A DNA stretch of 60,668 nucleotides, from contig JAIPIK010000005.1 of the NCBI GenBank assembly GCA_021734745.1, positions 1 through 60,668 on the forward strand. Direction: 5' to 3'. The stretch is from Candidatus Altimarinota bacterium. GTDB lineage: Bacteria; Patescibacteriota; Minisyncoccia; Phycocordibacterales; UBA5272. Shown here piece by piece: positions 16,471-19,523 of this stretch. The number at the start of each line of letters is the position of its first letter. The stretch's first letter is position 1. The position numbers and the translations under genes were made by a program. The notes under the pieces were generated by a model. The model was not told the origin of the DNA and did no database searches. It worked only from the letters and a program-made list of their open reading frames with translations.

Positions 16471-17799
16471 CTATTGTGAGAGTAAATTATCTATCCTATT
16501 TATGTCTCTTGGAAACATTGTTGCTTCTTTTATATTTTCAAGACCTAAAAACTTTGACGTTATTCTCTCAAGTCCAAGTCCAAGTCCTCCATGTGGAGGC
16601 ATGCCGTATTTGAAGGCTTGTAAATAATATCTGAATTGATTAGAATTTAAACCTTTATTTTCCATTGACTTAACTAATTTTTCATAGTTATGAATACGCT
16701 GACCACCAGTTGTTATTTCTACACCCCTGAACAATAAATCAAAGCCTTTTGCATAACCAATATCATTTTCATCCTCATACGTATACATCGGTCTTTTACT
16801 AATTGGAAAATGAGTTATGAAAATAAAATCTGAGTTAAAATTCTTCTTTGCGTATTCACAAAGCCAGCGTTCATGCTGTGGTTCTAAGTCTGGTTCTTGT
16901 GAGCAATCTTCTCCAAACTCTTTTTTAATTATTTGTTGAGCCTCTCTCAATTTCATAACTGGAACATTTTCTGGAAGCTCAGGGAATGTTGCGTTGAGTA
17001 ATTCAAATTCTCTGGTGCATTCCTTCTTTAGCGCTGAGATAATATAACGCAATAGAGAGGTCTCCATCTCAATAATATCCGTATGATCTTTTATAAATCC
17101 CATTTCAAAATCAAGGCTTGTATATTCGTTCAGATGGCGAGAAGTCGCGTGTTTTTCAGCACGATAAACATTCCCAGTAGTAAAGACCCTTTCAAAAACT
17201 CCGACCATTATTTGTTTATAAAATTGTGGACTTTGCGCTAAATGAGCAGTGTGTCCAAAATATTCCAAATCAAAAGAATTTGCCCCACCTTCGGCGTCTT
17301 CACCTATAAGTTTTGGTGCTTGGAACTCAGTAAAACCCTCAGTAATCAAAAACTCGCGAAATGCTTTTAAAATAGTTGACTGAACCTTAAATATTGATTT
17401 GTACTTTTCTCCTCGAAGGGTATACGGCAATAGGTCTAAGTGGGTATCAAGATTAACTTCTGAACCAAGCTCAAATGGTACATCTTGAGCTTCTGCTATA
17501 ACTTCAATCGTAAGAACTTCGAGTTCTACGTCGCCATTTATAACACCCTCCTTAATATTTCTCTCTGGACGTTTGTTTACTTGTGCAGTAACTGAAACAA
17601 TCCACTCAGGACGAACTTTTTGTGCTACATCAAGGGCTTCCACATGATTAGGTAACACTACCGCTTGCACCTTACCTGTTACATCGCGCAAGTCCAAGAA
17701 AACCATTTTTCCTTGGTCACGACGAACATCAATCCATCCTTTAACAGTTACTTCACTTCCAACACTTTTAGAAATATCTTTAATATAAGTTCTTGCCAT
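16471..17799 (-). CDS. aspS: aspartyl-tRNA synthetase, archaeal/non-discriminating type
   Basis: This class II synthetase has an N-terminal OB-fold (residues 1-100, VKGWIDVRRDQGKMVFLDLRD) and a catalytic core with GANSFDLEYFGHTAHLAQSPQFYKQ, FRAEKHATSRHLNEYTSLDFE (motif 2) and GLGLGLERI (motif 3). It lacks the GAD insertion of bacterial AspRS, so it is the archaeal type. That type often also charges tRNA-Asn and works with GatCAB. The ATG at 17799 is chosen over an upstream in-frame TTG because it begins at the conserved MARTYI and directly follows the T-box hairpin. A terminator follows the gene. Confidence 0.93.
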   Translation of the reverse strand: MARTYIKDISKSVGSEVTVKGWIDVRRDQGKMVFLDLRDVTGKVQAVVLPNHVEALDVAQKVRPEWIVSVTAQVNKRPERNIKEGVINGDVELEVLTIEVIAEAQDVPFELGSEVNLDTHLDLLPYTLRGEKYKSIFKVQSTILKAFREFLITEGFTEFQAPKLIGEDAEGGANSFDLEYFGHTAHLAQSPQFYKQIMVGVFERVFTTGNVYRAEKHATSRHLNEYTSLDFEMGFIKDHTDIIEMETSLLRYIISALKKECTREFELLNATFPELPENVPVMKLREAQQIIKKEFGEDCSQEPDLEPQHERWLCEYAKKNFNSDFIFITHFPISKRPMYTYEDENDIGYAKGFDLLFRGVEITTGGQRIHNYEKLVKSMENKGLNSNQFRYYLQAFKYGMPPHGGLGLGLERITSKFLGLENIKEATMFPRDINRIDNLLSQ

Positions 17800-17978
17800 A
17801 AAATTAAAATAGTCCGTAAACAAACATTTATTACATCTAGGCCTTGCCTAGATGTAAATTGTTTGTGTACGGACGATTACGGAGAACCGTGGTGCCACCA
17901 TACCTTGCTACTTATTGTAGCCACTCTTATTTATTAAATTAGTCCTTCGCTCCGAAGTTGTCAGCTTCATCAATGCTT
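17800..17978 (-). promoter_or_regulatory. T-box leader controlling aspS, with very short stem I
   Basis: On the minus strand the leader contains GGTGGCACCACGG (17887-17899), the T-box sequence that binds the tRNA acceptor end, then TCGTCC (17871-17876), as in known T-boxes. A small hairpin GCTAC-AATAA-GTAGC (17907-17921) sits where stem III is expected. Further upstream, GCTGACAACTTC offers GAC (Asp) as a specifier codon, with AAC (Asn) next to it. A long hairpin (17812-17874, outer arms GTCCGTA/TACGGAC, inner perfect TACATCTAGGC arms) ends in TATTTTAATTTT directly before the ATG, so it looks like the terminator form. Stem I is far shorter than in Firmicutes. Confidence 0.78.
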
Positions 17979-17984
17979 ACATTT

Positions 17985-18012
17985 ATACTATCACATTAAA
18001 AATAGCAAGCAA
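17985..18012 (-). promoter_or_regulatory. probable promoter of the aspS T-box transcript
   Basis: On the minus strand, TTGCTT and TAGTAT are 16 bases apart. They would start the transcript near 17978, just before the first T-box helices. Confidence 0.45.
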
Positions 18013-18049
18013 GAAGAAGTGTGTAGGTCTTGCCTTGACATAAGATATA

Positions 18050-18089
18050 GAAAAGAAAATCCCCACAAACGATGTTCTTGTTCATGGGG
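18050..18089 (-). terminator. intrinsic terminator of the 23S-like RNA
   Basis: On the minus strand CCCCA and TGGGG pair (with further AACA/TGTT pairing inside), followed by ATTTTCTTTTC. It begins a few bases after the closing stem of the RNA gene. Confidence 0.75.
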
Positions 18090-18093
18090 ACGG

Positions 18094-18516
18094 ATGATTC
18101 CTTAATACATTGATGACTACTTTCAAAGGGTACTCACGTTGTCTATGAAGTTTGCTCTTTGTTCTGGCTAGGTCTCAGGTATCGGACCGACTTCTCGACG
18201 TTTTCCTTTTTCGACACACAGGGATGGTATTTCACTGTTGGCTCCACGACGTCTAGCGACGTAAAGGTTATTCAACCTACTTCCCAGTACATAAGGATTA
18301 AGATTGACCTCGGTTCAACGCCTCCCACCTATTCTACACAATGCGTATCTATTGATTTCATTAGGTGATGGATTCGAACCATCTAACAGAATACAACGAG
18401 ATACCTCTACCTCGTTCTGTCACCAGTTTCACCTTTGGTGTGATGAAGACGTCGAAACCCTACTTTCCCCGAGTTTCGTCCAAGGCCATTTTTACATCAA
18501 TTTGTATTAAGGAACC
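18094..18516 (-). ncRNA. structured RNA gene containing 23S rRNA domain V (L1-stalk) sequence
   Basis: The ends pair: TTCCTTAATACA near the 5' end matches TGTATTAAGGAA near the 3' end, and the next six bases also pair after a two-base bulge. Inside, GTGTAGAATAGGTGGGAGGC, then GTGGAGCC and GTGAAATACCATCCC, match 23S rRNA helix 75 and the flanks of the L1 stalk (about E. coli 2090-2200) with few changes. The stalk itself carries an insertion. Other visible parts are the hairpin CGAAAC/GTTTCG, the hairpin AACGAG/CTCGTT, and a stem with the T-loop TTCGAAT. A promoter ends six bases before the first G and a terminator follows. It could be a captured rRNA piece, a decoy RNA or a pseudogene. It is not a full rRNA. 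Confidence 0.65.
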
Positions 18517-18522
18517 AAATAA

Positions 18523-18551
18523 ATACTATCAAAAACTAAAAATTATTGCAA
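18523..18551 (-). promoter_or_regulatory. sigma70-like promoter of the 23S-like RNA
   Basis: On the minus strand, TTGCAA (18546-18551) and TAGTAT (18523-18528) are separated by 17 bases. The expected start falls at 18516, exactly where the closing stem of the RNA begins. The -35 overlaps the end of trpS. Confidence 0.65.
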
Positions 18552-19523
18552 ACCAACTTGCTTACGTATAACACTCATTTTTTCTTCTGCTTTTTTTTGT
18601 GCAGACTCACCCCCTTCTTTTAAAAGATTAAGTATAAAAGATGTATCGGCTACTAGTTCATCGTACTTTTCTTTTTTACCTTCACGCCATTTCATTAAAG
18701 TCTCAAAAAGTTCATCCTTAGCTTGTTTGTATCCATAACCACCATTTTCAAATTTTGCACGAAGACTTTTATTTTCTTCCTCACTCAAAAACAGTTTGTG
18801 AATTTTATAAATATTATTTTCATCTGGATTCTTCTTTTCTTCTGGACTAGCGCTATCAGTAACAATACTCATAACTTTTTTCTTCAAATCTTCATCTGAG
18901 CAAAACAATTCAATGTGATTGTTATAACCTTTACTCATTTTCTGTCCATCAATACCAGGAAGTGATGCCACACTCTCGACAATTAAATCTTTTGGAAGTT
19001 TAAACTCATCTATGTTGTAGGCACGATTATAATATCCAGCAATATCACGTGCGTATTCTACATGTTGTTTCTGGTCTGCTCCCACCGGAACAATATCTGC
19101 ACCATAAATCAAAATATCCGCTGCCATAAGTACTGGGTAATCAAAAAGACCTAAATTAACATCCTCATTTTTAGCCTCTCTGTCTTTAAACGCATGAGCT
19201 CGCATCATATAAGGCATTGTCACGAGATTATTAAATATCCAAGTGAGTTCTGTAACTTGAGGAACCGATGACTGTTTGAACAAAATAACTTTAGAAAGGT
19301 CTAGCCCGCAAGCAATATATGATGCTACAGCTTCAATTGTTTGAGTTCTCAATTCATCTCCATTTCTAACAGTTGTTAGTGCATGATAATCAGCAATAAA
19401 AACATAGCTCTCAAATTCACCAGAACTTGAAAGGTCTATATTTTGCTTCATCGCCCCAAAGTAATTACCAAAATGTAATCGTCCAGTTGGTTTAATTCCA
19501 GAAACTAAGATTTTCTTTGACAT
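18543..19523 (-). CDS. trpS: tryptophanyl-tRNA synthetase
   Basis: This class I synthetase charges tRNA-Trp. It has SGIKPTGRLHFGNYFGA (the HIGH region as HFGN), GADQKQHVEYARDIA and the KMSKS-like loop KMSKGYNNH. Its length of about 326 residues is typical. The ATG at 19523 is chosen over an upstream TTG because it begins with MSKKILVSG and is preceded by AAAGGAC. Its last bases overlap the promoter of the RNA gene downstream. A few bases separate the next upstream gene, the symporter. Confidence 0.94.
   Translation of the reverse strand: MSKKILVSGIKPTGRLHFGNYFGAMKQNIDLSSSGEFESYVFIADYHALTTVRNGDELRTQTIEAVASYIACGLDLSKVILFKQSSVPQVTELTWIFNNLVTMPYMMRAHAFKDREAKNEDVNLGLFDYPVLMAADILIYGADIVPVGADQKQHVEYARDIAGYYNRAYNIDEFKLPKDLIVESVASLPGIDGQKMSKGYNNHIELFCSDEDLKKKVMSIVTDSASPEEKKNPDENNIYKIHKLFLSEEENKSLRAKFENGGYGYKQAKDELFETLMKWREGKKEKYDELVADTSFILNLLKEGGESAQKKAEEKMSVIRKQVGLQ

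Follow-up and report, generated by a model that had tools for sequence, protein, structure and literature searches.

Organization of the aspS leader

The window (the whole stretch of DNA analyzed, 60,668 nt) carries aspS on its minus strand, with the ATG at 17799, preceded by a leader in which the T-box proper spans 17982-17866 (-). The other features of the locus are given in Table 1. The T-box sequence GGTGGCACCACGG (17899-17887), TCGTCC (17876-17871), the stem III-like hairpin, the GAC loop and the strong hairpin, all named in the first-pass annotation of this DNA, were found on the same strand. Stem I is composed of a 2-bp lower helix (GC/GC), a K-turn-like AUUGAU/GGA and an upper helix of 3-4 bp (GAAG/CUUC). 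Stem III, flanked by GAGUG and AA, fits the RRRxG-stem III-AA motif (PMC7583486). At the promoter-like element, GTGnTAGTAT is invariant in four congeners; a scan with the sigma-70 consensus revealed no -35 match and no full promoter upstream of the leader. Between trpS and the T-box promoter, we also observed a strong hairpin (CCCCAUGAAC...GUGGGG) followed by UUUUCUUUUC at 18050-18110 (-), and no Rfam family matched positions 18020-18560.

Table 1. Features of the aspS leader and associated genes in the window.
Feature	Position	Strand	Basis or remark
Putative extended -10-like promoter element TGATAGTAT	17985..17993	-	Just upstream of stem I; read from sequence
Ultrashort stem I (~28 nt)	17949..17976	-	RF00230 alignment
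Specifier GAC (Asp) in 7-nt apical loop CUGACAA	17960..17962	-	Sequence
A/U-rich 22-nt linker in the usual place of stem II, S-turn and IIA/B pseudoknot	17927..17948	-	Sequence, congener comparison
Stem III with flanks (GAGUG, GCUAC-AAUAA-GUAGC, AA)	17905..17926	-	GCUAC/GUAGC helix 17921-17907
Antiterminator (A1 GUAUGG/CCGUAC, A2 ACG/CGU)	17867..17903	-	RF00230 and R1 alignments
T-box bulge UGGCACC (7 nt) within the antiterminator	17897-17891	-	RF00230 and R1 alignments
Predicted intrinsic terminator with interrupted U tract	17800..17874	-	Hairpin 17874-17812, then UAUUUUAAUUUU, then ATG 17799
aspS (442 aa, chimeric AspRS)	16471..17799	-	NF003483 and domain-wise identity
tRNA-Asp(GUC), the presumed ligand, truncated at its 3' end by the contig edge	1..65	-	Rfam tRNA match, anticodon from sequence

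The AspRS encoded downstream matched NF003483 (aspartate--tRNA(Asn) ligase) with 507 bits (cut-off 353), and that of the congener G014 is bacterial-type (505 bits, cut-off 374). Residues 1-100 of the window protein are 63-97% identical to those of the congeners G005, G008 and G014, against only 13-40% for the rest of the protein, which shares 59-86% identity with the AspRS of G024, a genome from another family. Judging by these identities, the window AspRS is an in-frame chimera of a native bacterial-type anticodon-binding domain and an archaeal-type catalytic domain, with a breakpoint near residue 103. The leader and the anticodon-binding domain thus appear to have stayed in place while the catalytic part was exchanged. 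No other AspRS was found in the genome, which argues against an assembly artefact. The first-pass annotation, which described the enzyme as archaeal-type, was right for most of the protein but not for residues 1 to ~103.

Identification and distribution of the T-box

A T-box in front of aspS had been proposed in the same annotation, along with a scan with RF00230, and was borne out by RF00230, by a second model (R1) and by conservation in relatives. RF00230 matched positions 17982..17866 (-) with 44.2 bits (E = 2e-8 for 701 nt searched against 4227 families; E = 6.3e-9 in the whole 960-kb genome). This score lies under the gathering score of 93 bits, a limit set in curating a model whose stem I is full-length and not a biological feature. 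R1, a covariance model built from 11 minimal leaders that all belong to other families of the order of Patescibacteria in which this genome falls, found the element independently with 52.3 bits (E = 6.7e-9), the next-best match in the window having 10.1 bits. The GAC in the apical loop, the anticodon of tRNA-Asp(GUC) and the downstream gene agree with each other, and matching pairs of specifier and gene were also observed in relatives (AUC with ileS, AGC with serS). From these features, we conclude that the aspS leader is very probably a minimal transcription-attenuating T-box riboswitch controlling aspS.

Searches with RF00230 at E 1e-3 or better returned matches in 41 of 118 relatives and in 130 of the 397 genomes of an even sample of the order, none of them over the cut-off, and in 128 of 380 genomes across the phylum, 13 of them over it; these counts are approximate, as some weak matches were lost to strict filtering and a small number of matches are false. 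The 13 above-threshold matches (L274-L286) are fuller T-boxes elsewhere in Patescibacteria. R1 matched 86 of the 397 order genomes; T-boxes bearing stem II were among these matches, so the figure cannot be taken as the number of minimal forms. Where a match had a T-box core and was followed by a gene that could be named, that gene was nearly always aspS, ileS, thrS or serS. Within the genus, the aspS genes of G005, G008 and G014 have a leader almost the same as that of the window, and no T-box was found before aspS in the other congeners examined, which are most of the genus genomes examined. The same genome contains a second sub-threshold T-box, with an AUC specifier and a stem II, before ileS (L001 1501-1659, contig C21). 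Two matches in an rplU context (L047, L048) were rejected because they have no T-box core, and L202, with only a degenerate core, was treated as false.

Other T-box arrangements were encountered during these searches. Six loci (L005, L031, L038, L214, L223 and L239) belong to another type with GGUCC...UUGGGCC in stem I and a possible UGG (Trp) specifier, located upstream of amidoligase-like or carboxylate-amine-ligase-like genes and trpB. In the thrS T-boxes L033, L221, L235 and L262, an apical loop contains ACC, the bulge is UGGA and stem I differs from the K-turn type. Small proteins (about 114 aa), the function of which is perhaps linked to aspartate, are encoded directly behind GAC T-boxes at L009 1756-2094 and L272 975-1316; a guess that they are aspartate transporters was dropped, as they have no Pfam match.

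A stem I without its usual supports

The short stem I had been flagged as unusual, and it is indeed present, but the missing stem II is the more unusual feature. The elbow-binding IDTM of class I T-boxes with a long stem I is absent, as there is no distal stem I part and the promoter-like element lies directly upstream. Stem II, the S-turn and the IIA/B pseudoknot of class II are also absent, only the linker occupying their place. The three congeners with a window-type T-box lack stem II too, as do leaders from five other families (G063/G257; G029; G390; G071/G225/G410/G438; G243/G367/G385/G402), for a total of six families with the window genus, whereas most aspS and ileS leaders of the same order keep it. 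A U before the specifier was considered as a mark of minimal leaders and abandoned because most leaders with stem II have this U as well.

Covariation was analyzed in the stem I segments written out for 16 minimal leaders. Among the specifier stems, the 10 distinct ones all paired with their own partner, compared to 10 of 90 crosswise combinations (0 of 200,000 permutations), and so did all eight lower stems, compared to 13 of 56 crosswise (p = 3e-4, the 2-bp stem of the window left out); these p-values are indicative, since visual selection of segments for their pairing biases towards self-pairing and the leaders are related to each other. For the window leader, the nearest-neighbour model favoured a competing hairpin (CUUCG/CGAAG), about 2 kcal/mol more stable than the specifier hairpin, and gave the specifier stem a probability of about 0.004. 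We attached limited weight to this prediction because the specifier-stem probability was also low for most relatives tested, which made MFE folding uninformative as a test of stem I; the nearest-neighbour model may be poor for this element.

The points against a working T-box are the score under the cut-off, the weak lower helix, the competing hairpin, the interrupted U tract and the published general dependence of transcriptional T-boxes on the elbow-binding motif and of short stem I forms on stem II (PMC7583486). The main rival explanation is a decaying T-box, in which replacement of the catalytic half of aspS would have relaxed selection, stem I would be losing its lower helix (2 bp, against 5 bp in congeners) and the leader would now act mainly as a constitutive attenuator. 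The more stable competing hairpin, the chimeric nature of aspS and the rarity of T-boxes before aspS in the genus are consistent with such a decay. However, stem III and the antiterminator are almost identical to those of congeners, an intact terminator follows, and the specifier remains a matching codon in a loop, CUGACAA, which is identical in distant relatives such as G390 (aspS leader). We therefore regard decay as unlikely.

For the working T-box that we favour, the loop sequence suggests one way in which the tRNA might be held without elbow dock or stem II. The seven nucleotides of the loop, C-U-GAC-A-A, can be read as arranged like an anticodon loop (positions 32-38), and complementary anticodon loops bind each other far more strongly than codon triplets. 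A tentative suggestion, which we consider plausible without thinking it probable, is that the T-box has been cut to a working minimum in which the specifier hairpin mimics the anticodon arm of a tRNA; loop-loop pairing with tRNA-Asp, as between two tRNAs whose anticodons are complementary, would replace the missing supports and be fast enough for transcription control.

The predicted terminator/antiterminator switch

The predicted energy of the terminator is -36.5 kcal/mol and that of the antiterminator about -10 kcal/mol, and with a terminator so much stronger the OFF state would be the default. The two structures are mutually exclusive, as positions 17874-17867 are common to both and the 5' arm of the terminator, GUCCGUA, overlaps the 3' strand of the antiterminator. 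The stem III/antiterminator core (~50 nt) is almost identical in four congeners, among which the upper and apical parts of the terminator vary with their self-complementarity kept. In a permissive test, the terminator 3' arm could pair with the antiterminator strand in 94 of 112 leaders, compared to 42-55 with shuffled anchors. The whole leader folds with a z-score of -6.0 (0 of 200 shuffles equally good) because of the terminator, the aptamer by itself being not unusual (z = -0.8).

We infer from this arrangement that the leader binds tRNA, responds to its charging and terminates transcription. Uncharged tRNA-Asp would base-pair with the leader at two sites, the anticodon GUC with GAC in the stem I apical loop and the 3'-terminal GCCA with UGGC in the bulge. 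The bound tRNA would stabilize the antiterminator and keep GUCCGUA out of the terminator, allowing RNA polymerase to read into aspS. Charged tRNA would be unable to do so; the terminator would form and transcription would stop before the ATG.

Alternatively, the T-box could act mainly on translation, the hairpin up to the AUG masking the translation start rather than terminating transcription. The hairpin is located 12 nt from the AUG and most translational T-boxes have an intermediate or ultrashort stem I (PMC7583486), but no Shine-Dalgarno sequence was seen within this hairpin, the hairpins of relatives are followed by U-rich stretches (e.g., UUUUUAUUUUU in G014), and terminators were predicted in most of the 112 leaders, making translational control an improbable main function.

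The presumed tRNA ligand

The congener copies of tRNA-Asp are identical to that of the window over 65 nt and carry G73, to which the C of the UGGC bulge is complementary. The bulge base varied with the downstream gene, as it was U in all 22 ileS leaders, A in 20 of 20 thrS leaders and C in the six serS leaders, while aspS leaders had C in 27 cases and U in 5 of 32. The corresponding tRNA genes of this genome have A73 (Ile), U73 (Thr), G73 (Asn) and G73 (Ser). Such agreement between bulge and discriminator across genes would be difficult to account for if tRNA were not sensed. This genome also has a pair of neighbouring tRNA-like genes (L204 101-293, contig C9) whose anticodons are odd, one called as the 4-base GCAA and the other as ACA.

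By the first-pass annotation, a lack of conservation of the core or of the specifier in related aspS leaders would have refuted the T-box; both are conserved there, as is the short stem I, with the difference that the triplet is AAC instead of GAC in G005, G008 and G014. No AsnRS was found above the cut-off in 16 genus genomes and GatB was found above it in 15 of them; Asn-tRNA is therefore probably made by transamidation. The AspRS probably serves both tRNA-Asp and tRNA-Asn, so that the AAC of the congeners and the GAC of the window both make sense. The ligand could then be tRNA-Asn, or both tRNAs, a reading with which G73 in both tRNAs also agrees. Nevertheless, GAC pairs fully with GUC and would need a G-U pair with GUU, and we hold it quite unlikely that tRNA-Asp(GUC) is not the sole ligand.

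That a T-box-like string arose by chance beside an ordinary terminator is hardly conceivable: the Rfam score is sub-threshold, but the independent models, the gene context, the covariation of the stems and the agreement between bulge and discriminator speak against it, and the conservation data contradict it.

Comparison with known T-boxes and significance

The translational T-boxes with ultrashort stem I in front of actinobacterial ileS genes (Sherwood et al., 2015, cited in PMC7583486) resemble the window element in having an apical-loop specifier on a short K-turn stem I, no elbow-binding motif and the same core of stem III and T-box bulge. In contrast to the window element, with its predicted terminator and no stem II, they act on translation and rely on both stem II and the IIA/B pseudoknot. 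The transcriptional glyQS T-boxes of Firmicutes share the lack of stem II and the antiterminator/terminator switch, but they have a long stem I and require the elbow-binding motif. Other T-boxes of the same order, before aspS, ileS and serS, share the ultrashort stem I, an apical specifier, a UGGN bulge and a terminator, although most of their aspS and ileS leaders have the S-turn stem II, often with the pseudoknot. The window element, as predicted, combines a short stem I and a terminator with the lack of stem II. As a rule, according to PMC7583486, the elbow-binding motif is required in transcriptional T-boxes, and stem II in those with a short stem I. In TBDB, the class II model was searched only in Actinobacteria, complemented by class I matches with a truncated stem I, and short forms without stem II are thus likely under-recorded. 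Our literature search, with most subscription journals outside its reach, found no paper on T-boxes in Patescibacteria, CPR or Saccharibacteria.

In current models, codon-anticodon pairing becomes strong enough in a T-box only with the help of either a stem I that binds the elbow or a stem II (PMC7583486). A natural leader of ~115 nt with neither support would define the minimum that an RNA needs to read a tRNA, and its small size makes a direct test possible. The AAC-to-GAC specifier difference beside a domain-swapped AspRS represents a natural experiment on a T-box following its enzyme. More broadly, tRNA-sensing control appears to be common in one order of Patescibacteria and invisible at the standard Rfam threshold, and annotations of these genomes therefore miss T-boxes.
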